DNA of 64,000 nucleotides from an uncultured Pelagibacteraceae bacterium (GTDB lineage Bacteria; Pseudomonadota; Alphaproteobacteria; Pelagibacterales; Pelagibacteraceae), in the NCBI GenBank assembly GCA_902569725.1, contig CACFVG010000002.1:1-64000 (forward strand). The letters run 5' to 3'. The notes below the pieces were generated by a model, which made no database searches, was not told where the DNA came from, and saw only the letters and a program-made list of their open reading frames with translations. The position numbers and the translations under genes were made by a program. Every line of letters begins with the position of its first letter. Position 1 is the stretch's first letter. Shown in pieces: positions 1,165 through 17,699 of the stretch.

Positions 1165-1938
1165 ATGATCAATGCTAAAGATTCAAAGAATACTTTTTAT
1201 ATTCTAAATAAAAAAGAAAATACTCCAATAGTTTTAATCCACGGCGTAGGACTTAATCATAAAATTTGGGAGCCTCAGATTAATTCATTTAATAATACTG
1301 TCTTGGCATATGATATCTTGGGACATGGAAACACACCCTTAACAAAATCACAAATAAGTTTTGATGATTTTTCATTACAATTACTAAATTTAATTGATGA
1401 ACTAAAGTTTGAAAAAATGCATTTAGTTGGTTTTTCAATTGGTTCATTAATAGCAAGGAATTTTGCCTCAAAATATAATAATAGATTAGAGTCTTTAACT
1501 TTGCTTTGCTCAGTTTTTAAAAGAAGTAATGAGCAGCAACAAATAGTAAATGATAGATTTGAATTATCAAAAAAAAGTAGATCTTTATCAAAACAAGCTC
1601 TTAAGAGATGGTTCACAGATGATTATATAAATAAAAATCCAAATATTTATGAAAAAATTTGTTCTATGCTTGCAGAAAATGATATGGAAAATTTCCTAAA
1701 AGTTTATGAACTTTTTGTTAAGCACCAAGATAATGAAATATTTGAAAATATAAAAACTAAAACATTAGTTATGACTGGAGAAAATGATATTGGATCAACA
1801 CCGGAAATGTCCCAAAATTTAAGTAAAAAAATCGCTAATTCTAAAGTTAAAATAATAAGCAATGGAAAACATCTCTGTAGTATTGAGTGTGCAGATGATG
1901 TAAATAACGCTATTAAGGAACATATAAAAAATGACTAA
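1165..1938 (+). CDS. alpha/beta hydrolase (3-oxoadipate enol-lactonase-like)
   Basis: VLIHGVGLNHKIWEPQI oxyanion region, LVGFSIGS nucleophile elbow, C-terminal GKHL His. Confidence 0.8.
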   Translation: MINAKDSKNTFYILNKKENTPIVLIHGVGLNHKIWEPQINSFNNTVLAYDILGHGNTPLTKSQISFDDFSLQLLNLIDELKFEKMHLVGFSIGSLIARNFASKYNNRLESLTLLCSVFKRSNEQQQIVNDRFELSKKSRSLSKQALKRWFTDDYINKNPNIYEKICSMLAENDMENFLKVYELFVKHQDNEIFENIKTKTLVMTGENDIGSTPEMSQNLSKKIANSKVKIISNGKHLCSIECADDVNNAIKEHIKND

Positions 1939-3412
1939 ACTTAAGCAATATAAAATGTTTATCGATGGAGAATGGGTAGACTCTGATACTAAAAAAACTT
2001 TTGAAACTTTAAATCCAGAAAATAATAAGCCATGGGCTGTAGTTCCTGAAGCAAGTGCAAATGATGTTGATAGAGCAGTGAAAGCAGCACAGAAAGCATT
2101 TGAAGGAGAATGGCCAAAGTTACTTCCACGAGAAAGAGGAAAATATTTAAGAGCAATAGCGGATAAACTTAGAAAGAATGCTGAGTTACTTGGAGAAATT
2201 GAAACTATTGATACTGGAAAATTGTTTAGAGAAACAAAAAAGCAAGCAAACTATATTGCAGAATATTATGACTATTATGCTGGTATGGCGGATAAAGTTG
2301 AGGGAACAGTTTTACCCATAGATAAACCGAACATTCAAGCAATAACTACGAGAGTTCCAATAGGTGTTATAGCTGCAATTATTCCTTGGAACTCTCAGAT
2401 GTTATTAACAGTAACTAAGCTGGCTCCAGCTTTAGCAATGGGAAATACTGTTGTTATAAAGTCGTCAGAGCTAGCGCCTGCAGTACTATTTGAATTTGCA
2501 AAATTAGTTGAAGAAACAGGAATGCCAAAAGGTGTTGTGAATGTTATTACAGGTTATGGTGATCCATGTGGAAAGGCTCTAACAACGCATAATTTAGTTG
2601 AAAAAATTGCTTTTACAGGAGGTCCTGAAACTGCAAAACACATAATTAGAAATTCAGCTGAAAATTTATCAGAAGTAAGTTTGGAGCTCGGAGGAAAAAG
2701 TCCAGTAGCGGTATTTGAAGATGCACATCAAGAAAATGCAATAAATGGGATTACCGCTGGAATTTTTGGTGCAAGTGGCCAAAGTTGTATTGCTGGTTCA
2801 AGACTTTATTTACAAAAAGGAATTTATAATGAATTTCTAGATAAGCTTGCTGCAAGAGCAGAAAAAATAAAAATTGGTGCGCCTATGGATCCTGAAAGCG
2901 AAATGGGTCCAATTGGTAATTTTAAACAATTAGAAATAATAGAAAAAAATATTAAATTAACTGTAGAACAAGGTGGAAAAATTAAATGTGGAGGTAAAAG
3001 ACATCCATTTTCAAATGAAGGATACTATTTTCCTCCAACAATAATTGAGTGTGATAATCATAATCTTCCCACTGCAGAAAATGAACTTTTTGGTCCAGTG
3101 CTATCTGTAATGAAATTTGAAAATGAAGAAGAAGTAATAAATAAAATGAATGATAACCAATACGGTTTATCATCTGGAGTTTATACTAGTGACTTCTCAA
3201 GAGGTATGAGAGTTTCAAAAGCAATTAGAGCTGGGATTACATTTGTAAATACTTATAGACTAATATCTCCATCTGCTCCATTTGGAGGAATGAAAGATAG
3301 TGGCTACGGTAAAGAAGCAGGTATAGAGTCTATAAAAGATTACACAAGAGTAAAAACAACTTGGTATTATACTTCAGATAAACCAACTCTTGATCCATTT
3401 TCAATGAGATAA
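1931..3412 (+). CDS. aldehyde dehydrogenase (NAD(P)+) family
   Basis: LELGGKSP and GQSCIAGSRLY catalytic Cys motif, PWNSQM, FGPVLSVMKF. Confidence 0.92.
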   Translation: MTKLKQYKMFIDGEWVDSDTKKTFETLNPENNKPWAVVPEASANDVDRAVKAAQKAFEGEWPKLLPRERGKYLRAIADKLRKNAELLGEIETIDTGKLFRETKKQANYIAEYYDYYAGMADKVEGTVLPIDKPNIQAITTRVPIGVIAAIIPWNSQMLLTVTKLAPALAMGNTVVIKSSELAPAVLFEFAKLVEETGMPKGVVNVITGYGDPCGKALTTHNLVEKIAFTGGPETAKHIIRNSAENLSEVSLELGGKSPVAVFEDAHQENAINGITAGIFGASGQSCIAGSRLYLQKGIYNEFLDKLAARAEKIKIGAPMDPESEMGPIGNFKQLEIIEKNIKLTVEQGGKIKCGGKRHPFSNEGYYFPPTIIECDNHNLPTAENELFGPVLSVMKFENEEEVINKMNDNQYGLSSGVYTSDFSRGMRVSKAIRAGITFVNTYRLISPSAPFGGMKDSGYGKEAGIESIKDYTRVKTTWYYTSDKPTLDPFSMR

Positions 3413-4272: not shown

Positions 4273-4345
4273 TTAATCATTGAAATATTAATTTAATCAT
4301 AATCTAATAACTTTTTATAAATTGTTAACAATTAAAGGGAAAATT

Positions 4346-5527
4346 ATGAGAAAATTAATTTTAGCTGCATTTTTATTTGTTTCTACGATGACAACAAATA
4401 CTTTTGCAGATATTAAAATGGGAGTAATTTTAGGATTTACAGGTCCTATTGAATCTCTAACACCTGCTATGGCTGCATCTGCAGAGCTTGCTTTTAAAGA
4501 AGCTTCAGATTCAGGTTCGTTATTAGGAGGAAAAAAAATATCAGTAGAAAGAGCTGACTCAACTTGTGTTGACTCTGCTGCTGCTACAACTGCTGCTCAA
4601 GGATTAGTAGACGGAGGTGTTGTTGCTATTATGGGAGCTGACTGTTCTGGGGTTACGGGTGCAATTGCAACTAATGTTGCTGTGCCAAATGGAGTAGTAA
4701 TGATTTCTCCATCTGCAACTTCTCCAGGTTTAACTACTTTAGCTGACAATGGGTTTTTCTTTAGAACAGCTCCATCGGATGCAAGAGGTGGTGCAATCTT
4801 GGCTGATATTACTAAAGACAGAAAAGTTAAAAGTGTAGCGATTACTTATACAAATAATGACTATGGTAAAGGTTTATCAGATGTTTATGAAGCAGCTGTT
4901 AAAGCTCATGGCATTAAAGTAACTACTGTTCTTGCTCATGAAGAAGGTAAAGGTGACTACTCAGCTGAAGTAGCAACACTAGCAGCTGCTGGTGGTGATG
5001 CTGTTGCTGTCTTAGGTTATCTTGACCAAGCTGGAGCACAAATTATTCAGGGTTCTCTAGATGCAGGATCATTCGATAGATTTATTTTATCTGATGGTAT
5101 GATTGGAGACTCATTAACTGATAAATTTGGTAAAGCTTTAAACAAATCATTTGGTTCTCTACCTGGATCAACTGGAAAAGGTGCTGGAGTTTTTGCTGAT
5201 GTAGCAAAAGCTGCTGGTATTGATTCTTCAGGTCCTTACACAGGTGAATCATATGATGCTGCTGCTTTAATCACTCTTGCTATGCAAGCTGGTGGAAAAG
5301 CTGACAGAGCTACTGTTCAAGCAAATGTTATGGCTGTAGCAAATGCACCTGGTAAAAAAATCTACCCAGGTGAATTAGGAAAAGCTTTAGATTTATTAGC
5401 TAAAGGAAAAGCCGTTAACTATGAAGGTGCAACAGGTGTTGAATTTACTGATGTAGGTGAAGCATTTGGTTCTTTCTTAGAAAAAGAAGTTAAAGGCGGT
5501 AAGTTTAAAACTAAAAAACAAAGATAA
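4346..5527 (+). CDS. periplasmic substrate-binding protein of a branched-chain amino acid (HAAT) type ABC transporter
   Basis: Signal peptide MRKLILAAFLFVSTMTTNTFA; Leu/Ile/Val-binding fold pattern (IKMGVILGFTGPIE...). Internal ATG at 4346 preferred over the 4322 start. Confidence 0.88.
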   Translation: MRKLILAAFLFVSTMTTNTFADIKMGVILGFTGPIESLTPAMAASAELAFKEASDSGSLLGGKKISVERADSTCVDSAAATTAAQGLVDGGVVAIMGADCSGVTGAIATNVAVPNGVVMISPSATSPGLTTLADNGFFFRTAPSDARGGAILADITKDRKVKSVAITYTNNDYGKGLSDVYEAAVKAHGIKVTTVLAHEEGKGDYSAEVATLAAAGGDAVAVLGYLDQAGAQIIQGSLDAGSFDRFILSDGMIGDSLTDKFGKALNKSFGSLPGSTGKGAGVFADVAKAAGIDSSGPYTGESYDAAALITLAMQAGGKADRATVQANVMAVANAPGKKIYPGELGKALDLLAKGKAVNYEGATGVEFTDVGEAFGSFLEKEVKGGKFKTKKQR

Positions 5528-5648: not shown

Positions 5649-7019
5649 TTAATTCTTTATAATTTTCTCTGGTAAAATTCCTTGTGGTCTAAATCTCATT
5701 ATAACCAATAGTGCTGTTCCGATCACTAAAAATCTAAAATAAGGAGCGCTATTTATTAAATGTACTCTAATTTCATTTGTTTCTGGTAAATGCGCTGTGA
5801 AAAGATTAATAAAAAATAGTGCTATTGGTGCTGCTTCAACCCATAAAAACCAAACAACAAAACCACCTAAAATTGCTCCAAAATTGTTTCCTGTTCCTCC
5901 AACAATAACCATTACCCAAATAACGAATGTATATCTCATCGGTCTGTAACTTCCTGGCGTAAATAATCCATCGTTGGTTACCATCATGGCACCTGCTATA
6001 CCAACTATTGCAGAGCCTAAAATAAATATTAACAAATGCTGTTTAACAACATTTTTTCCCATAGCTCCTGCAGCTTCTTCATTGTCTCTTATTGCTCTCA
6101 TCATTCTTCCCCATGGAGAGTAAAGAGCTTTTTGAGTAAAAATTAATAAAATTATAACAACAGTTAAAAATAAACCTGTAAAACAAAGTTTTACATACAC
6201 CGATGAAGCATCAATAACTAACTGGTTTAAAACTTCTTGTTTTTCTGAAACAGAATTAATTAATGCTAGTTTTCCTGAGTGAAATTTTTCAACTAAGTCT
6301 ATAAACCACGGTGATTGCTGAAGATTAATTTCATACGGTGCTGGTCTTTTAAGTCCAATTACATTTTTAACTCCTCTCGCTAACCAATCTTCATGTTTGA
6401 TTATTGATACAACTATTTCTGCAATTAGTAGTGTAGCGATTGCTAAATAATCTGCTCTTAGACCTAATGCTACTTTTCCTACTACGAAAGCTAATCCACC
6501 TGCAAGAAATGCACCTGCTATCCATGAAAATAAAACTGGTAACCCTAATCCCCCTAAAAAGCCAGTTTTAGCTGGTTCTACTGCCTCAATACTTTCAATA
6601 GCAGGTGCTGAAATTAATCTAAGTAATAATATTCCAATTATAATTATAGCAGCTATTAAATAATTTCTTTTTTTGGATTTCGCAATTTTTTTTAAAGTAA
6701 GACGAATTGAAAAAACTATTCCAATTATAACACCTAAACAAATCATCATATTTAAACCACCTACGCTCCAAGCTTCTCCAACGGGTGCCACCGATACAAG
6801 TACAACAGCTAATCCACCTAAAGCGGTGTAGCCCATTATCCCAAAGTTAATTAATCCAGCATATCCCCATTGGATATTTGCACCTATCGTCATAACTGCA
6901 GAAATTAAACAGTAGTTTAAAATTGTTAAAGCAAGAGACCATGATTGCAAGATTCCAACCAAAATAATTAATGTAAACATTATCAAGTATGCTGTAATTA
7001 CATTTAAATATTGCCTCAT
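5649..7019 (-). CDS. livM: branched-chain amino acid-type ABC transporter permease (LivM family)
   Basis: LivM signature GRMMRAIRDNEEAAGAMGKNV; overlaps the LivH ORF. Confidence 0.88.
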   Translation of the reverse strand: MRQYLNVITAYLIMFTLIILVGILQSWSLALTILNYCLISAVMTIGANIQWGYAGLINFGIMGYTALGGLAVVLVSVAPVGEAWSVGGLNMMICLGVIIGIVFSIRLTLKKIAKSKKRNYLIAAIIIIGILLLRLISAPAIESIEAVEPAKTGFLGGLGLPVLFSWIAGAFLAGGLAFVVGKVALGLRADYLAIATLLIAEIVVSIIKHEDWLARGVKNVIGLKRPAPYEINLQQSPWFIDLVEKFHSGKLALINSVSEKQEVLNQLVIDASSVYVKLCFTGLFLTVVIILLIFTQKALYSPWGRMMRAIRDNEEAAGAMGKNVVKQHLLIFILGSAIVGIAGAMMVTNDGLFTPGSYRPMRYTFVIWVMVIVGGTGNNFGAILGGFVVWFLWVEAAPIALFFINLFTAHLPETNEIRVHLINSAPYFRFLVIGTALLVIMRFRPQGILPEKIIKN

Positions 7020-8026
7020 AGTGTTTTTCCTTTAAAAATTCCTGAGGGCCTAAATAATAAAACAATTACTAGAATAGAAAACGAAACTGCAAACTTATAA
7101 TCAGTTGATAGTATTTGCATCATAGAATTAGGTTCTAAAGATTCTGGAAGAATATATGTAAAAAACTTTTTATAAGCATAGGTTAAAAATATTTCAGCAA
7201 ATGCAATAACGTATCCTCCTAGAAAAGCACCAAAAGGATTTCCTATTCCACCAACAATTGCTGCTGCAAATATTGGCAACATATTATTAAAATATACAAA
7301 TGGTCTGTAGCTTTTATCTAGTCCATATAAAATTCCACCAATTGTTGCTAATATTCCAGCAATAACCCAAGTAATTAATACAACTTTTTTTGGATCTATT
7401 CCTGATAGTAAAGCTAAATCCTCATTATCAGAATATGCTCGCATACTTGTCCCAGTCTTGGTTTTGTTTAAAAACCAAAACATTATAGAAACTACAATCA
7501 TAGTAATAACTATTGTTATCGCTTGCGTTGACTTAATAGTTAAGCCCTCATTTAATCCTGTCATTTCTTTAAATTCTGAGGCTTTTAAAATAAATTTCTC
7601 TCCATCAAGAAAAGTTCTATCTGCAGGCCCAATAATTATCCTTATTATTGCTTGAGTAACAAACATTACCCCAACACTAACCATTGCAAGTTGAACAGGT
7701 GGACTTTTTTTAATTCGATAATATTCAAATACAAATTTATCTATAGATAACATATATAAAATCATCATAAAAGTCGCTAAAGGAATTGTAATTAAAGCTG
7801 TTGGAAATATTCCAAGATTTATACCTAAAGATTGAAAATAATATGTAAGAAGAACTGCAAACATGGTTCCAAATGACATCATGTCTCCAGTTGCAAAGTT
7901 TGCAAATCTTAATATTCCATAGATTAATGTTACAAAAATTGCTCCAAGCGCTAACTGTGATCCGTATGTTAAAGCAGGTATTATCGTATAATTTAATAAT
8001 ACCAATATTGCGTTTATAAAATCCAT
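7016..8026 (-). CDS. livH: branched-chain amino acid-type ABC transporter permease (LivH family)
   Basis: LivH-type membrane protein, TKTGTSMRAYSDNEDLALLSGIDPKKV. Confidence 0.88.
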   Translation of the reverse strand: MDFINAILVLLNYTIIPALTYGSQLALGAIFVTLIYGILRFANFATGDMMSFGTMFAVLLTYYFQSLGINLGIFPTALITIPLATFMMILYMLSIDKFVFEYYRIKKSPPVQLAMVSVGVMFVTQAIIRIIIGPADRTFLDGEKFILKASEFKEMTGLNEGLTIKSTQAITIVITMIVVSIMFWFLNKTKTGTSMRAYSDNEDLALLSGIDPKKVVLITWVIAGILATIGGILYGLDKSYRPFVYFNNMLPIFAAAIVGGIGNPFGAFLGGYVIAFAEIFLTYAYKKFFTYILPESLEPNSMMQILSTDYKFAVSFSILVIVLLFRPSGIFKGKTL

Positions 8027-8734
8027 TTAAGCTCCTAAGAAAGACCTTCTAACTTCTGGATTATTAAGTAATTCATTTCCAGATCCTTCAAATTTATTTT
8101 CACCTGTAACTAATACGTATCCTCTATCAGAAATACTCAATGCTTGTTTTGCATTTTGTTCGACCATTATAATTGCTACATTTGTTTCTTTGACTTTAAT
8201 TATATGCTCAAATAATTCGTCCATTACTATTGGTGAAACTCCTGCAGTTGGTTCATCTAACATTAAAACAGAAGGTCTTATCATTAATGCTCTTCCAAGA
8301 GCTACTTGTTGTCTTTGTCCTCCTGATAATTCACCTACTTTTTGTGATTTCTTTTCATTTAAAATAGGAAATAATTCATAAATTTCCTCAATAACTTTAT
8401 CAACATCATCTTCACGTAAAAAAGCTCCAACCTTTAAATTTTCTTTTACAGTTAAATCAGCAAATACATTTCTAGTTTGCGGAACAAATGATATTCCAGC
8501 CTTAACCCTATTTTGAGGAGATAAATTAGAAATATTTTTTCCATCCATTAAAACAGAGCCTGATTTCAAATTAAGAAGTCCTAACATTGCTTTCATTGCT
8601 GTAGACTTTCCAGCACCATTGGGGCCAAGTATTGCAACTATCTCTCCTCTGTTCGCATTAATTGAACATGAGCTAATAATATCTGGACCATTTCCATATC
8701 CAGCTGTCATTTTACTTCCTTCAAAAAAAGCCAT
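8027..8734 (-). CDS. livF: ABC transporter ATP-binding protein (LivF family)
   Basis: Walker A GPNGAGKST, signature LSGGQRQQ, Walker B VLMLDEPT. Confidence 0.92.
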   Translation of the reverse strand: MAFFEGSKMTAGYGNGPDIISSCSINANRGEIVAILGPNGAGKSTAMKAMLGLLNLKSGSVLMDGKNISNLSPQNRVKAGISFVPQTRNVFADLTVKENLKVGAFLREDDVDKVIEEIYELFPILNEKKSQKVGELSGGQRQQVALGRALMIRPSVLMLDEPTAGVSPIVMDELFEHIIKVKETNVAIIMVEQNAKQALSISDRGYVLVTGENKFEGSGNELLNNPEVRRSFLGA

Positions 8735-8747
8735 TAATTATTTTCTC

Positions 8748-9536
8748 CTATTTTGTTTTTGCTCGACCTAAATAGCTTTCTATTACTTTTTCATTTTTCA
8801 TCACTTCGTCTGGTGTACCTTCAAATAATACAGATCCTTCCGCCATAACAATTACTGGGTCACACATTCTTTTTATAAAATCCATATCATGTTCGATCAT
8901 ACAGAATGTATAACCTTTTTCTTTATTTAATCTTTGAATAGCGGTTCCAATATCTTTTAGTAAAGTTCTGTTAACTCCAGCTCCAACTTCATCAAGTAAA
9001 ACTATTTTTGCATCAACCATCATAGTTCTTCCAAGCTCAAGTAGTTTTTTTTGACCACCTGATAGATTTCCAGCTAGTTCATTTGATAAATGCTTTAAAT
9101 TTAAAAAATTGATTACTTCATAGGCTTTTTGTTTTACAATTTCTTCCTCTTTTTTAACTATCTTTGGCTTTAGCAATGCTGTCATCAATTTTTCTCCAGA
9201 TTGGTTGCCAGGAACCATCATCAAATTCTCCAATACAGTTAAATTTGTAAACTCATGTGCTATTTGAAAAGTTCTCAACAATCCTTTTGAAAACAATTCG
9301 TATGAGGGAATTGAAGTTATTTCTTCGTTATTAAACATTACATGACCTGAGCTAGGTTTTAAATTTCCTGCAATCAAATTAAATAATGTAGTTTTGCCAG
9401 ATCCATTTGGACCAATAACTCCAGTGATAGATCCTTTTTTAATGTTTAAAGAACAATTTGATACTGCTGCTAAACCACCAAAATATTTTGAAATATTATT
9501 AATCTGCAGAATATTTTGATCAGGCTGCATAGACAA
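8748..9536 (-). CDS. livG: ABC transporter ATP-binding protein (LivG family)
   Basis: Walker A GPNGSGKTT, LSGGQKKLLELGR, LLDEVGAG. Confidence 0.92.
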   Translation of the reverse strand: MSMQPDQNILQINNISKYFGGLAAVSNCSLNIKKGSITGVIGPNGSGKTTLFNLIAGNLKPSSGHVMFNNEEITSIPSYELFSKGLLRTFQIAHEFTNLTVLENLMMVPGNQSGEKLMTALLKPKIVKKEEEIVKQKAYEVINFLNLKHLSNELAGNLSGGQKKLLELGRTMMVDAKIVLLDEVGAGVNRTLLKDIGTAIQRLNKEKGYTFCMIEHDMDFIKRMCDPVIVMAEGSVLFEGTPDEVMKNEKVIESYLGRAKTK

Positions 9537-10411: not shown

Positions 10412-11062
10412 TTAAAAACTTTTAACAACTGATATAGTACCAAAAGCACTCATCATGTCTGTAAGTGTAACTTTTGTACCACCTGCATCTGATGCTGAGT
10501 TAGCTACTTCTACTTCATCGTATTGCGCAGCTGTAACTTCAGCTCTTATGCTAAGACCATCAGCAGCTTCTATACTGTATCCTAATCCAGCCATCATTCC
10601 TGTTGTATCTGTATTTCCATAAGAACCACCAGTTCCTAAATTCTCAATAGAATTTAAGTCAACGTAGATTCCACCAACTTTAGCATATAGTCCACCAAGT
10701 GGTATTGGAATTAAAGCATAAACAGTTGTATGGTTTTCAAATTCACCCTTAACTGTGTTCGTCGTTGTACCTTGAAGGTTTGTATTTTTCGGAGTTTCTA
10801 TCTCTGAAGGAATATAATCCAAACCTACACTAATAGGTCCTATATTATACTCTACAAACACTGACATGTGGTTTGCAGTAAACGCACCTGCTTCTTTGGT
10901 ATCATCAACGCCAGTCTCATCATTGTCAGTTTCTTCAGTACCCACCGCATAATAACCTGAGTGTGATCCTGAAATACCAACGCTAAGCCCCTCTAAGCTA
11001 ACAGCGTAAGAACTAGTCGCTAGTCCTAGAGCTAAAAGCAAAGATATGATTATTTTTTTCAT
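10412..11062 (-). CDS. secreted outer-membrane beta-barrel-like protein
   Basis: Signal peptide MKKIIISLLLALGLATSSYA, alternating amphipathic strands, terminal Phe (VVKSF). Confidence 0.65.
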   Translation of the reverse strand: MKKIIISLLLALGLATSSYAVSLEGLSVGISGSHSGYYAVGTEETDNDETGVDDTKEAGAFTANHMSVFVEYNIGPISVGLDYIPSEIETPKNTNLQGTTTNTVKGEFENHTTVYALIPIPLGGLYAKVGGIYVDLNSIENLGTGGSYGNTDTTGMMAGLGYSIEAADGLSIRAEVTAAQYDEVEVANSASDAGGTKVTLTDMMSAFGTISVVKSF

Positions 11063-11304: not shown

Positions 11305-12222
11305 TTAATTAGAAAAAGAACCCCTGATTCTAAGAAGTTCTCGACTTAAATTTTCATTTTTCTCAAATGGCTTTCTTCCATGTAGCCAAAAATGATTATT
11401 AGTAACTACTGCCGAACCTATTGGAAGTCTAGTAGTTATTTTATTATCACTTTCCTCTAAAGAGTCAGACAGTCTTTGAAGAAAGATACCTTGTTGAATA
11501 TTTTGAGGTTCTGGAAATTGGTCTATATAAGAAATGTTTATATTATCATTTTTATCTTTTATAAAAACTGGATGTTCTACTTTATAATCTACATTTTTGC
11601 TTTTGGGAGAGCTCCAAATAAAATTTTGCCTGCCTACCGGATCCTCTGATAATTCTTTTAAATTTTCTAAATCATCCAAATGCAACAAAACAGTTTCTCC
11701 ACCTTTGGCATTTTTTTCTTCAATTTTGGTCATTAAAATCCAATCAGTATTCTCATTAACATAGGTGCCATCTGTATGAAGATCCATATTTACATATGCT
11801 TTTCTTAAATACGAATCACTATTATCTTCATGTTTGACAAAAAATCTTGCATAATATTTTCCTGACATTGAATCATGATTAGGTACTCCAATTAAATGAG
11901 TTATTGCTGTTGCAAGTTTAACTAAGAACTTATCATCTATTTTTTTGTTTTGATTGTTTGTTTTCAATACAAAACATCCTTTAGTTCTATCTTTTAAAAT
12001 TGAATTAATTAATTTACATAATTTATTTTGAGTTAAATCATCTAGATTTTTTGCCAAAGTGAACCTTGCGAAAGGTTTGTATTCTAGTGCAGTAATGTCA
12101 AATCTCTTAAATGGAAAAACTAACTTTTCAATAAATTCATCTTTTAAATGTAAATCTATAATTCTATTAGATTTACTATTTGCTAAAACTTCAAATCCTT
12201 CAATTTTATTTTGGTTATTCAT
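11305..12222 (-). CDS. CsiD/GlaH-like glutarate 2-hydroxylase (2-oxoglutarate/Fe(II) oxygenase)
   Basis: Extensive remembered similarity to E. coli CsiD: TALEYKPFARFTLAKNLDDL, KLATAITHLIG..HDSMSGKYYARFFVKHEDNSDSYLRKAYVNMDLHTDGTYV, NNHFWLHGRKPF, SRELLRIRGSF; HxD...H...R ligands present. Confidence 0.85.
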   Translation of the reverse strand: MNNQNKIEGFEVLANSKSNRIIDLHLKDEFIEKLVFPFKRFDITALEYKPFARFTLAKNLDDLTQNKLCKLINSILKDRTKGCFVLKTNNQNKKIDDKFLVKLATAITHLIGVPNHDSMSGKYYARFFVKHEDNSDSYLRKAYVNMDLHTDGTYVNENTDWILMTKIEEKNAKGGETVLLHLDDLENLKELSEDPVGRQNFIWSSPKSKNVDYKVEHPVFIKDKNDNINISYIDQFPEPQNIQQGIFLQRLSDSLEESDNKITTRLPIGSAVVTNNHFWLHGRKPFEKNENLSRELLRIRGSFSN

Positions 12223-13007
12223 TAACCTCCTAAAAATAATCTTCCAACATCTGGATTTTTAAGTAAATCTTCACCTTTCCCAGCTATTGCTGTTTGGCCC
12301 GATACTAAAACATAACCTATATCGGCAAACTCTAATCCTTTTTTTGCGTTTTGTTCTACAAGTATAATTGTTTTTTTTTCATTTTTTTGGAGATCTCCTA
12401 AAATTTCAAAAACCATATCTATATATTTTGGTTCTAAGCCAATTGAAGGTTCATCTACTAATAAAATAGAAGGTTTCATAACCAGGGCTCTTGAAATTTC
12501 TAATAATCTTCTTTCACCTCCTGATAAAACTTTGGCTGGTTGATTTCTTCTATTTCTTAATCTTTCATATTTTTGAAGTACTCTTTCTGCTTCTTCATAT
12601 GAATCTTCAGTTTTATTTTTTATATAGCCACCCATTAGTAAGTTTTCTTCTACTGTCATATCTGGAAATACTGAATTATCCTGAAGAATATAAGCAATTC
12701 CTTCTGACTTTAGTTTTTGAGCAGGTGATAAATTTGTAATTTCTTTTCCATCAATTTTAATTTGACCGGAAAAAATATTTGTAAAACCATAAATTGAGTG
12801 AAGGATTGTAGATTTTCCTGCTCCATTTGGACCAATTAAACATAACGATTGAGCTCTACTAACAAATAAATCAAAATTATGTAAAATTTCCATTTTTCCA
12901 TATCCAGCAGACAAATTGTTTATTGTTAAATGAACGTTATCAGAAGAAAGTTTCTTTAAGTCTTGAGCGCTGGGTGATTTTCCTAATACTTCATATTGAT
13001 TAGCCAT
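12222..13007 (-). CDS. livF: ABC transporter ATP-binding protein (LivF family), second system
   Basis: GPNGAGKST, LSGGERRLLEISRAL, LLVDEPSIGL. Confidence 0.9.
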   Translation of the reverse strand: MANQYEVLGKSPSAQDLKKLSSDNVHLTINNLSAGYGKMEILHNFDLFVSRAQSLCLIGPNGAGKSTILHSIYGFTNIFSGQIKIDGKEITNLSPAQKLKSEGIAYILQDNSVFPDMTVEENLLMGGYIKNKTEDSYEEAERVLQKYERLRNRRNQPAKVLSGGERRLLEISRALVMKPSILLVDEPSIGLEPKYIDMVFEILGDLQKNEKKTIILVEQNAKKGLEFADIGYVLVSGQTAIAGKGEDLLKNPDVGRLFLGG

Positions 13008-13747
13008 TATTGTGCTCCAAGATAAGCATCAATAACACGCTTATCATTTTTAATTTCATCTGGCTTACCATTCGCTAACATTTGACCGTGAGCTAAACAA
13101 AAAATACTTTCCGCTAATTGCATAATTACTCTCATATTATGCTCAATTACAAGTAGCGTAATTCCAAAATCTTGATTAACTTTTATTAGTCTATCAATAA
13201 TTCCATTTATTAATGTAGGATTTATGCCCGCTGTTGGCTCATCTAGTAGTAGCATTTCTGGCTCATTCATTAATGCCATAGCGAGTTCTAATAATTTTTG
13301 TTGGCCAAAAGATAAATCTCCTGCTCTTAATTTTCTTTTCTGATAAAGCCCAACAAAGTTTAGCAAGTTTTCTGCTTTTTCTGTTAAATTTTTAGGTATC
13401 TGTGAAAATATTTTAATTAAATTCTCATCACTTGCTTTATGGCTAATAAGCATATTTTCTACACAATTTAATTTTCCATAGATTCTTGTTTGTTGAAATG
13501 TTCTTAACAGACCAAGTTTTGCTATTATTGGAACAGGTAGTTCTGAAACTTCCTTATCATTAAATTTAATTGAACCTCGATCTATAGGGTAAGTTCCAAC
13601 AATAGAATTAAACAATGTAGTTTTTCCTGATCCATTAGGTCCAATTAAGCCTACTATTTTTCCTTTTTCTACAGACATTGAAATATCAACATTGGCTTTA
13701 ACACCACCAAATGATTTACTAACGTTATTGACTTCTAGGATTTTCAT
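13007..13747 (-). CDS. livG: ABC transporter ATP-binding protein (LivG family), second system
   Basis: GPNGSGKTT, LSFGQQKLLELAMAL, LLLDEPTAG. Confidence 0.9.
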   Translation of the reverse strand: MKILEVNNVSKSFGGVKANVDISMSVEKGKIVGLIGPNGSGKTTLFNSIVGTYPIDRGSIKFNDKEVSELPVPIIAKLGLLRTFQQTRIYGKLNCVENMLISHKASDENLIKIFSQIPKNLTEKAENLLNFVGLYQKRKLRAGDLSFGQQKLLELAMALMNEPEMLLLDEPTAGINPTLINGIIDRLIKVNQDFGITLLVIEHNMRVIMQLAESIFCLAHGQMLANGKPDEIKNDKRVIDAYLGAQ

Positions 13748-14796
13748 TTAAGTTCAACCTGCGCCTTTCGGTCAGCCTCATCAACTACTTCACCAAATCT
13801 CTCAGGATATTTTTCTCTGAGCCAACCCATAATTCCTTCTGGAAAATAAATTACAATTACAACAATTAAAACTCCAAGAGCAACATACTGCCATCCAAGG
13901 AAGAAAGTCCAAAAACCTTCTTTAAAAATATGAAATATAGTTGCTCCAATAACTGGTCCCCACAAAGTTCCCTTACCACCTAATATTGCCATTAAAACCA
14001 TAAAGACTCCCATCTCTCTTCCATCAAATGCAACATCAGTGGAATCTATGTAGCCTACAAGACCTCCCATTATTCCTCCTGCAAGGCCACAGAAAAATGC
14101 TGAGATCATCCAACCAATAATTTTATATTTCATTGTTTGAATTCCCATTGCTTCAGCTTTGTCTTCATTGTCCCTTATTGCATTAAGGACTAATTTAAAT
14201 CTGGTTGAGTAAATAGATTTAACTACAATAAATGTGAGTATAAGCGAAACAAAACTACAAAAATAAAAAAATTCACCTCTTGCTTCTAAACTTCCTATGT
14301 TTGGAAATGGTGGAGTTGTAAAACCTTGTCCTGCACCTATAATTTCTATTCCTCCTGATATTTCTCCCGCAGCAACACCTAGTCCTAATGTACAAATTGC
14401 AAAATAATGTCCTCTTAATCCTAGAATTGAATATCCTATTAATCCCGCAACTATCGTTGGTACAATTGCAGCAACAGCCAAACCAACTCCAAAGCCTTGA
14501 AAAAATTGAGCTGGTGTGTGAACAAATGTTTTTTCTCCTCCACTTTCAGTCCATTCAGCTAAAGGAAAAAACATTCCCACTTGAACTGATGCGCAAAGAT
14601 ACATTCCTAATCCATAAAATAAAATGTTACCAAAAGAATTATACCCCATCTCACCACCTTGGATATTCCAAGTTATTGCTAAAATTATTAAAACACAAAG
14701 TATTGATAATTGAACTTTGAATGCTGGAAAAATAAATGGGGCAGCTAAACCAAATATTAAAACTGATAAATAAATTATTAAATTTTTATTTATCAT
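13744..14796 (-). CDS. livM: ABC transporter permease (LivM family), second system
   Basis: FKLVLNAIRDNEDKAEAMGIQTMKYK; operon position. Confidence 0.88.
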   Translation of the reverse strand: MINKNLIIYLSVLIFGLAAPFIFPAFKVQLSILCVLIILAITWNIQGGEMGYNSFGNILFYGLGMYLCASVQVGMFFPLAEWTESGGEKTFVHTPAQFFQGFGVGLAVAAIVPTIVAGLIGYSILGLRGHYFAICTLGLGVAAGEISGGIEIIGAGQGFTTPPFPNIGSLEARGEFFYFCSFVSLILTFIVVKSIYSTRFKLVLNAIRDNEDKAEAMGIQTMKYKIIGWMISAFFCGLAGGIMGGLVGYIDSTDVAFDGREMGVFMVLMAILGGKGTLWGPVIGATIFHIFKEGFWTFFLGWQYVALGVLIVVIVIYFPEGIMGWLREKYPERFGEVVDEADRKAQVELK

Positions 14797-15686
14797 TTTA
14801 AATACTCTCTTTTTTTAGATAGCTTAAATCTTCTATAAACAAGAATTAAGACTAATAATAAAAATACTGACCCTATTCTAAACTCTGTTCCTAAAATATA
14901 ATCTGCAAATTCTTCAAAAACCCCAAGACCCATACCAGAAATTGCTACACCTGGTAGATTTCCAAGTCCCGCAACAATTACAATCATAAAAGATCTAATT
15001 GTGTATGGTAATCCCATATAAGGATGAATAGTAAATGTAATTGAAATAAGTGCTCCAGCTACTCCGCATAGGGCTGCATTTATACCAAATGTAGCAGCAT
15101 AAACTTTTTCAGTATCAACACCTAAAATCTTTGCTGCTCTTGCATTTTGGGCCGTTGCTCTGATCGCTCGTCCAAGTTTGGATTTCTTCATATAAACAAC
15201 TAAACCAATTGCAAAAATAATGCTTATTATTGCAGCAAATATTTTTGAATTAGGTAAAACTACGGAGTTATCAAATAACATAGTTGTTCCATAGCCAGAA
15301 TTTGCAAGAACAACATCTGCTCCAAATGCAAAATTCATCAATTGCATAAAAAGAATACTAATTCCAAATGTAGCTAGAATTGATATAAATAAATCTCTAT
15401 CAACAACTTTATTGATAACTAACTTATAAATTCCAATACCTACAAAATACATAATTATCGGTGAAACTATTACTCCCCACGCAGGGTGGATTCCATAAAG
15501 GTACATAAAGTATGCAATGTAGCCACCAAGAATCACAAGATCACCTTGCGCAATATTAATAATATTCATTACTCCCCATTGAAGAGCCATTCCATATGCA
15601 ATTAAAGCAAATAGAATACCAAGAAGAATTCCATCCATTGATGCTTGGACCATTAAAATCGGTACTTGAAAAATTAGTAAGTCCAT
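14793..15686 (-). CDS. livH: ABC transporter permease (LivH family), second system
   Basis: SKLGRAIRATAQNARAAKILGVDTEKVYA; operon position. Confidence 0.88.
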   Translation of the reverse strand: MDLLIFQVPILMVQASMDGILLGILFALIAYGMALQWGVMNIINIAQGDLVILGGYIAYFMYLYGIHPAWGVIVSPIIMYFVGIGIYKLVINKVVDRDLFISILATFGISILFMQLMNFAFGADVVLANSGYGTTMLFDNSVVLPNSKIFAAIISIIFAIGLVVYMKKSKLGRAIRATAQNARAAKILGVDTEKVYAATFGINAALCGVAGALISITFTIHPYMGLPYTIRSFMIVIVAGLGNLPGVAISGMGLGVFEEFADYILGTEFRIGSVFLLLVLILVYRRFKLSKKREYLK

Positions 15687-15699
15687 AGAATTTTAATTA

Positions 15700-15732
15700 A
15701 AAAAAATGCCCCCTAGCATTTAAGGGGGCATA
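15700..15732 (-). terminator. intra-operonic terminator/attenuator hairpin between solute-binding protein and permease genes
   Basis: TGCCCCCT (15707-15714) / AGGGGGCA (15723-15730), 8-nt loop, followed on the minus strand by a U tract. Confidence 0.8.
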
Positions 15733-15744
15733 AAATATTAGTTT

Positions 15745-16983
15745 TTATCTTTCAGACCACTTAGGTATTGGGTGAATTAACTTAGCAGAAGCCCACTTAA
15801 GTGGAGCAACAACTTTGTTTTCACATTTTCCTGAGTTATCACAGATAACTTGGAATAATACCATTGGTTTAGAAACATTTTGACCACCTGGAGCAAATTT
15901 TATATTTCCATAAAAAGTTTGCATATCAGTAGCAGCAAGAGCATCTCTTACTTTTTTCTGATCAAAAGAATTTGCTCTTTCAAAAGCATCTTTGAAAACC
16001 AATAGTGCGGCAGAAGATTCAGCGGCTTGATATGGTGGAGCGTATCCAAACATTTTAGTAAAGTCTGCATCATATGTCATACCATCTTTAAACCACTTGT
16101 CTTTGTAAGTTAAAGTTTTATGCCATTGAGATGCACATAAAGCGTACTGAGAATTTTTACCATGTTGTTTAGATAATTTTGCAGCATCACAGTGTGTCAT
16201 TGCAAGCATTGGAACATCAACTTTCATTTCAGCTATTTGTCTAATAGCTGTTAATGCTCCTTTTGTATGTCCTGATACTACTAAAACATCTGGCTTAGTA
16301 GCTTTAACTTTTGCTAAAGTAGCTGCCATATCATTAAGCTCTTTTGGTAATTTATCGTCAATTATAATTTCAGATCCAGTTTCTTTTGCAGCATCTAAAA
16401 TACCTAATCTAACGTCTTGAGAAAAAGCATCTTGCTCAAAAGCTTGGGCAATTTTTACACCTTTTCCACCATTTAGCTCAACAGCAGTTCTAATAGCTAC
16501 ATCTAAATATAAGTTTGCTGGTGCTAACACAGCAAATAAATATTTATATCCTTTTGTAAACAAAGATCTAGATGCACCATTTGCTTCAACCATTGGAACT
16601 CCATACTTTTCAGTAACTGGTGCCATGGCTTTAGTTAAACCTGAACTGTAAGGTCCAAGCATAAACTCAACACCATCTTGACTAATTAATCTTTCTGCAA
16701 GCTGGGCTGCTCTCTTAGGATTTGATTCATCATCATAGTAAATAATGTCAAATTTATAAGTTTTTCCACCTACTTTAATACCACCCATACTATTAATTCT
16801 ATCAACGGCCATATTGTAACCGTTTTGAGTATGAACACCATTCGATGAATATTTTCCAGTTAGTGAAACAGCTGCACCTAAAATAATTTTATCTCCAACA
16901 ACTTTTGCAAAAGAAATACTTGAGGTAGATAATATAAGTGCAATTGCAGAAACAAATGTAATTATAAAGTTTTTTATTTTCAT
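15745..16983 (-). CDS. HAAT-type ABC transporter substrate-binding protein, second system
   Basis: Signal peptide, LGAAVSLTGKYSSNGVHTQNGYNMAVDRINSMGGI. Confidence 0.9.
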   Translation of the reverse strand: MKIKNFIITFVSAIALILSTSSISFAKVVGDKIILGAAVSLTGKYSSNGVHTQNGYNMAVDRINSMGGIKVGGKTYKFDIIYYDDESNPKRAAQLAERLISQDGVEFMLGPYSSGLTKAMAPVTEKYGVPMVEANGASRSLFTKGYKYLFAVLAPANLYLDVAIRTAVELNGGKGVKIAQAFEQDAFSQDVRLGILDAAKETGSEIIIDDKLPKELNDMAATLAKVKATKPDVLVVSGHTKGALTAIRQIAEMKVDVPMLAMTHCDAAKLSKQHGKNSQYALCASQWHKTLTYKDKWFKDGMTYDADFTKMFGYAPPYQAAESSAALLVFKDAFERANSFDQKKVRDALAATDMQTFYGNIKFAPGGQNVSKPMVLFQVICDNSGKCENKVVAPLKWASAKLIHPIPKWSER

Positions 16984-17084: not shown

Positions 17085-17699
17085 TTAATATTGCTGAGTT
17101 ATTGCGATTATTATTGCAATTATAATTAAAACACACGCTGAAATTGTGTTTATAGTTTTTGGATTTGCTTTTAACCAAACAAATAGTTTTTTTGCAAGAA
17201 TTGCATACGTAACTAGAGATAAAAAATCTAATAAAACATAAGTTGTAATTAAAATTAAGAATTGAACAATATAATTTGAGTTAAAGTCAATAAACTGTGG
17301 AAAAATAAATGGAAAAAACATCCAAGCTTTCGGACTTGTTCCGGCAACTACAAAGCCATCTTTAAAAAAAGAAATAAAACTTTTTTCCAAAATTTCATTT
17401 GAATTTATATTTTTTGGTTTGGAGTTATAAATATCGTATGCAAGATAACTTATATAAACTACCCCAATCCATTTAAAAGTAGTCAAGAACAATGGATGAT
17501 CTGAAATGAAAGATCCAATAACAAATATAACCAGAGTTGCTTGAAAAATATTTGCTGTAACATCCCCAAGAGCAGTCCATATGCATTTTTTAACTCCATA
17601 GTTCATAGAGTATGAAATAATTACAATTCTAGGAGTCCCTGGAGTAATGAATAGAAAAAGTACTATTTGTAAAAATAAAAAATATTCAAGGGGAAGCAT
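17085..17699 (-). CDS. LysE/RhtB family translocator
   Basis: FLFITPGTPRIVIISYSMNYGVKKCIWTALGD, hydrophobic, about 204 aa. Confidence 0.75.
   Translation of the reverse strand: MLPLEYFLFLQIVLFLFITPGTPRIVIISYSMNYGVKKCIWTALGDVTANIFQATLVIFVIGSFISDHPLFLTTFKWIGVVYISYLAYDIYNSKPKNINSNEILEKSFISFFKDGFVVAGTSPKAWMFFPFIFPQFIDFNSNYIVQFLILITTYVLLDFLSLVTYAILAKKLFVWLKANPKTINTISACVLIIIAIIIAITQQY

Follow-up and report, generated by a model that had tools for sequence, protein, structure and literature searches.

The locus considered here raises the question why the gene of a glutarate hydroxylase should share an operon with a Liv-type ABC importer, and whether this importer supplies the hydroxylase with its substrate. 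The window, by which we mean the complete stretch of 64,000 nucleotides that was analyzed, belongs to a SAR11 genome (Pelagibacteraceae) of 0.99 Mb and 81% completeness. An initial annotation had described a six-gene operon on the minus strand, and the open reading frames and protein families confirm it in the order SBP-livH-livM-livG-livF-csiD. The gene of the substrate-binding protein (SBP, 15745..16983) is followed by the permease genes livH (14793..15686) and livM (13744..14796), by the ATPase genes livG (13007..13747) and livF (12222..13007), and finally by csiD, also named glaH (11305..12222), for a predicted Fe(II)/2-oxoglutarate-dependent glutarate 2-hydroxylase of 305 residues. From livH through csiD, neighboring genes overlap by 1 or 4 bases at each junction, and the previously described overlap of the livF stop with the oxygenase start is indeed present: in TTAGGAGGTTAATG, a single base belongs to both the stop codon TAA and the start codon ATG (TAATG). 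Upstream of the cassette lies a gene for a LysE/RhtB-type exporter (17085..17699, minus strand; PF01810 with 76 bits), which is often, though not always, found alongside the cassette in syntenic relatives. Between csiD and proC, a small outer-membrane-type beta-barrel protein is encoded (10412..11062, minus strand; PF13505 with 24.9 bits, below the cut-off of 28.7), which occupies the same position in some relatives and lies outside the cassette proper. A second Liv-type set adjoins the cassette, with its SBP gene on the plus strand (4322-5527) and the remaining genes on the minus strand (5649-9536). The absence of lhgO-gabDTP next to csiD was also borne out, as the neighbors scanned between 9.5 and 22.9 kb of the window include no gene of the lhgO or gabT family, and an aldehyde dehydrogenase gene of the broad gabD family (1931-3412) is 8 kb away from the cassette. 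A chance or artefactual origin of the locus can be dismissed, since all of the genes are complete and their synteny recurs in many genomes.

The assignment of the hydroxylase, which had been annotated as CsiD/GlaH-like, is supported on several levels. The protein matches the glutarate dioxygenase GlaH model NF002814 over its full length with 441 bits (cut-off 333) and PF08943 also with 441 bits (cut-off 27), and it is 43% identical to E. coli CsiD. In the E. coli enzyme, iron is bound by His160, Asp162 and His292, glutarate is contacted by Arg311 and Gly163, and 2-oxoglutarate by Arg309 (Knorr et al., PMC6265302). The equivalent iron ligands H149, D151 and H281, the glutarate contacts R300 and G152, and the 2-oxoglutarate contact R298 are all invariant across an alignment of 23 proteins from SAR11 and other Proteobacteria. 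The predicted structure (pLDDT 84) superposes on E. coli CsiD structures with TM scores of 0.84-0.87, and the other dioxygenases listed reach about 0.66 or less. As residues 133-151 of the model, including two of the iron ligands, are of low confidence, the comparison of active-site residues rests on the alignment. By family score and active site, the sequence thus identifies a genuine CsiD/GlaH.

The importer has the architecture of the Liv-type (HAAT) systems, as one operon combines an SBP with PF13458 (168 bits), two permeases with PF02653 and two ATPases with PF00005, the LivG-type ATPase additionally with PF12399. None of these ABC components reaches an NCBIfam equivalog cut-off; the best matches of the ATPases are LivF with 190 bits, below its cut-off, and LivG with 216 bits. 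The SBP is of a non-canonical LivJ type and distant from the canonical leucine-binding proteins, which it matches with 51 bits versus 84 bits for the second SBP at 4322-5527; profile comparison aligns the two SBPs over their N-terminal part only. By fold, the nearest solved structure is 8wch, SAR11_0655 in complex with L-pyroglutamate, where the SBP model used is only fair (pLDDT 67). This relation hints at an unusual ligand without naming one.

In relatives, the locus usually reads LysE-SBP-livH-livM-livG-livF-azlC-azlD-(pentapeptide-repeat protein)-csiD-proC-second liv set. We compared 20 loci of the genus and 80 loci from named genomes, and most of them keep the block SBP-livHMGF-azlCD-csiD, with azlC and azlD between livF and csiD in nearly all. 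The linkage of csiD with liv genes that had been proposed is therefore found in relatives, where the two also co-occur; their tight overlap, which had been read as translational coupling, is a local trait, azlCD usually lying in between. Indeed, the TAATG junction of the relatives links livF to azlC, and csiD of the window starts at exactly that spot. azlCD has no match in the window, and a search of the remaining genome (81% complete) gave no AzlC. Judged from these sequences, the direct overlap of livF and csiD represents a derived state of local occurrence, in which azlCD was lost and csiD came to lie at the livF/azlC junction, and it was consequently discarded as a conserved feature; in the locus L118, too, azlCD is missing and csiD comes next after livF. 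The complete genome G198 (L202), from another genus, carries LysE-SBP-livHMGF-azlCD-csiD at a different position, with neither proC nor the second liv set beside it. Since both of these are missing there and stay in genomes that lack csiD, they were rejected as parts of the system.

Some further variations accompany the block. A pentapeptide-repeat protein precedes csiD in L068, L069, L072, L082, L083 and L120, in the last of these even with liv and azlCD gone. Between livH and livM, differing and unrelated open reading frames of about 170-370 residues are inserted in L066, L068, L071, L074, L080, L082 and L083, several of them with signal-peptide-like starts, which marks an insertion hotspot within the transporter operon. 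Two loci (L075, 3716-6694; L083, 13100-16079) contain, as judged by eye, a tripartite tricarboxylate transporter-like set of three open reading frames (497, 156 and 328 residues) between csiD and proC.

Within the genus, most genomes have either the entire block or none of it. Among 61 genomes, csiD and the SBP occur together in 31 and are both missing from 23, with csiD alone in four and the SBP alone in three (Fisher p about 1e-9, ignoring ancestry and physical linkage, which can account for part of the co-occurrence). In five of the seven discordant genomes, a contig end cuts the locus (G013, G029, G030, G028 and G038). Of the others, G007 (L166) truly has csiD without the importer, and in G020 (L163, L184) proC is directly followed by livF, so that the importer is present and azlCD and csiD are absent. 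In genomes that lack csiD, nothing of the block remains between the flanking genes and proC; proC itself stays, and so does the second liv set in most of them. Two lake genomes (L096 and L134) have kept azlCD-csiD without the importer, and L120 has kept csiD without importer and azlCD. Together with the arrangement in G198, these patterns describe the cassette as an old unit with separable parts. Since some lineages have csiD alone and others the importer alone, neither strictly needs the other, and the importer is no obligatory supplier of glutarate; its proposed delivery of glutarate or a precursor is a plausible hypothesis.

The csiD copy of the window has a history of its own. Its median identity to the other SAR11 CsiDs is 69% versus a typical 76%, the second-lowest value among 101 proteins after that of G198, and the SBP is ordinary in this respect (92% versus 93%). 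In the trees, the CsiD falls together with L084 and L120 (fork 94/81), the SBP with L075, L082 and L118 (fork 96/81). At the sequence level, this suggests either that csiD has been swapped by recombination among SAR11 or that a long branch misplaces the CsiD of the window. Carriage of SAR11 csiD by phages was considered and rejected, as viral matches are limited to eight contigs, whose csiD is 42-43% identical. One of these eight also has LhgO, 88% identical to one from outside SAR11.

If SAR11 CsiD forms L-2-hydroxyglutarate, the enzyme that removes it must be sought. A genome search found no canonical LhgO in the genus: none of 37 genomes, including the closed G012, has a protein above the NF008726 cut-off of 299, and the best matches reach about 64 bits in proteins of over 800 residues. 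The related family f2 of the same order (G061-G084, loci L033-L053) presents the mirror image of this genus, with LhgO-like proteins of up to 235 bits, below the cut-off of 299, and without a full-length CsiD. Of 399 proteobacterial genomes drawn for comparison, eight have csiD, two of these being SAR11, and LhgO adjoins csiD at five of the six loci outside SAR11. The sixth (G458, L205) carries an FMN_dh gene beside csiD where the other five have LhgO. Of 28 genomes sampled in the genus, 26 have FMN_dh genes, as does G198. The genes often come as a tandem pair, lie in a glycolate-oxidase-like cluster and are equally present with and without csiD; none was found in the csiD-plus genomes G022 (90% complete) and G051 (81%). 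As the SAR11 proteins share 31-34% identity with the enzyme encoded next to csiD in G458, and are no closer to it than the other FMN_dh proteins of G458, FMN_dh is a candidate only. In the genome of the window, the first of the tandem FMN_dh genes (G000, contig C9, 25077-27320; L212) is split into two fragments that overlap, one of them containing an in-frame TGA; this may be an assembly error or a real loss. Ldh_2 (PF02615) as the missing dehydrogenase lacks support, since it occurs in csiD-minus genomes and is absent from the csiD-plus, complete G198. With regard to the precursor enzymes, SSADH-like proteins score up to 501 bits (371 in the genome of the window) versus the GabD cut-off of 646, and aminotransferases up to 217 bits (187) versus the GabT cut-off of 507.

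We propose that the cassette serves a C5 carboxylate or amino-acid route in SAR11, and we give this proposal as a whole a probability of roughly 45%. CsiD would convert glutarate to L-2-hydroxyglutarate, with 2-oxoglutarate being turned into succinate, and a non-orthologous L-2-hydroxyacid dehydrogenase, most likely FMN-dependent and of the LldD type, would oxidize L-2-hydroxyglutarate to 2-oxoglutarate. SBP-LivHMGF would import a feed compound, which might be glutarate, a breakdown product of lysine or cadaverine, or another small C5 carboxylate, and which would enter the CsiD route or a neighboring one; the importer may hence feed the CsiD route. AzlCD, where present, would export excess product or an amino acid, and the genome of the window would have lost azlCD, with csiD now at the former livF/azlC junction. 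That many SAR11 cells import C5 compounds by a dedicated Liv-type transporter and process them with CsiD and a non-LhgO dehydrogenase, all through one importer/exporter/hydroxylase cassette that is gained and lost, is a broader statement that we consider doubtful.

The proposal has to be weighed against the view that the glutarate for CsiD arises within the cell, from lysine or cadaverine (as Noell et al. 2021 proposed for SAR11), and that the Liv importer carries an unrelated nutrient. As far as the available part of that study goes, SAR11 strains take up cadaverine, a breakdown to succinate via the lysine route was inferred, and gab (glutarate 2-hydroxylase) appears in the figure of the polyamine pathway (PMC8437039), so that CsiD in SAR11 is already known from the cadaverine/lysine route. 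The genomes with csiD and without the importer (G007, L120, L096 and L134) are also accommodated by an internal source of glutarate, which we take as a serious, if tentative, possibility. It fits less well with the strong co-occurrence of importer and csiD and their shared gain and loss in most genomes, and with the presence of the cassette in a second genus.

The SAR11 CsiD clade could instead have shifted to another C5 or C6 substrate delivered by the importer, such as a lactam or a hydroxy or amino carboxylate; the absence of LhgO from the genus would then be explained. This clade is well apart from other CsiDs, and the SBP is no canonical LivJ, with a nearest solved relative that holds L-pyroglutamate. 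However, all published glutarate and 2-oxoglutarate contacts are kept in SAR11 and in other CsiDs, and E. coli CsiD is strict, not converting oxalate, malonate, succinate, adipate or pimelate (Knorr et al., PMC6265302), and we therefore regard a shift of substrate as unlikely. The initial annotation had also offered a new CsiD substrate as an explanation, for which we see no positive evidence; the CsiD of the window is simply the most divergent copy sampled within the genus. Very improbable, in our opinion, is that AzlCD or LysE exports L-2-hydroxyglutarate as an end product and that CsiD serves to convert 2-oxoglutarate to succinate in an oxygen-linked step. AzlCD is the closest neighbor of csiD and persists in loci that have lost liv (L096 and L134), and the genus has no LhgO to consume the product, but the genome of the window has csiD without azlCD, the export would waste a C5 compound in carbon-limited cells, and the described role of the AzlCD and LysE families concerns amino acids.

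SAR11 are the most abundant bacteria of the ocean and dominate at its surface, and a dedicated glutarate or C5 route, if true, would give ocean models an additional carbon flow. With the cassette, it can also be tested directly how L-2-hydroxyglutarate is handled without LhgO, its usual clearing enzyme, and the context of the cassette is a strong clue to the ligand of the SBP.

Compared to known systems, the importer shares the five-part architecture and the families of E. coli LivJ/LivK-LivHMGF, but the scores of its SBP and subunits fall far short of the Liv equivalog cut-offs, and the better match to leucine-binding proteins in the window is the separate SBP beside the second liv set. With SAR11_0655 (PDB 8wch), the cassette SBP has the fold, the family and the SAR11 origin in common, but an identity of about 22% in the structural alignment does not justify a transfer of the ligand. 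The cadaverine route of Noell et al. (2021, PMC8437039) belongs to the same group of organisms and includes the enzyme in its pathway figure, whereas the csiD-liv-azlCD cassette, the co-loss and the missing LhgO are not mentioned in the available part of that paper; cassette and LhgO-less setting hence look new. In the csiD-lhgO pathway of Pseudomonas putida (PMC5974017), a glutarate hydroxylase likewise acts in glutarate catabolism, but there with LhgO as partner and, in the part of the source at hand, with no ABC importer described. The csiD-lhgO-gabDTP pathway of E. coli is based on the same enzyme family with the same iron, glutarate and 2-oxoglutarate residues and the same fold, at 43% identity to the SAR11 protein and with an LhgO that the SAR11 genus lacks. 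While csiD of E. coli is thus partnered by lhgO-gabDTP, its counterpart in SAR11 is partnered by a Liv importer and AzlCD.
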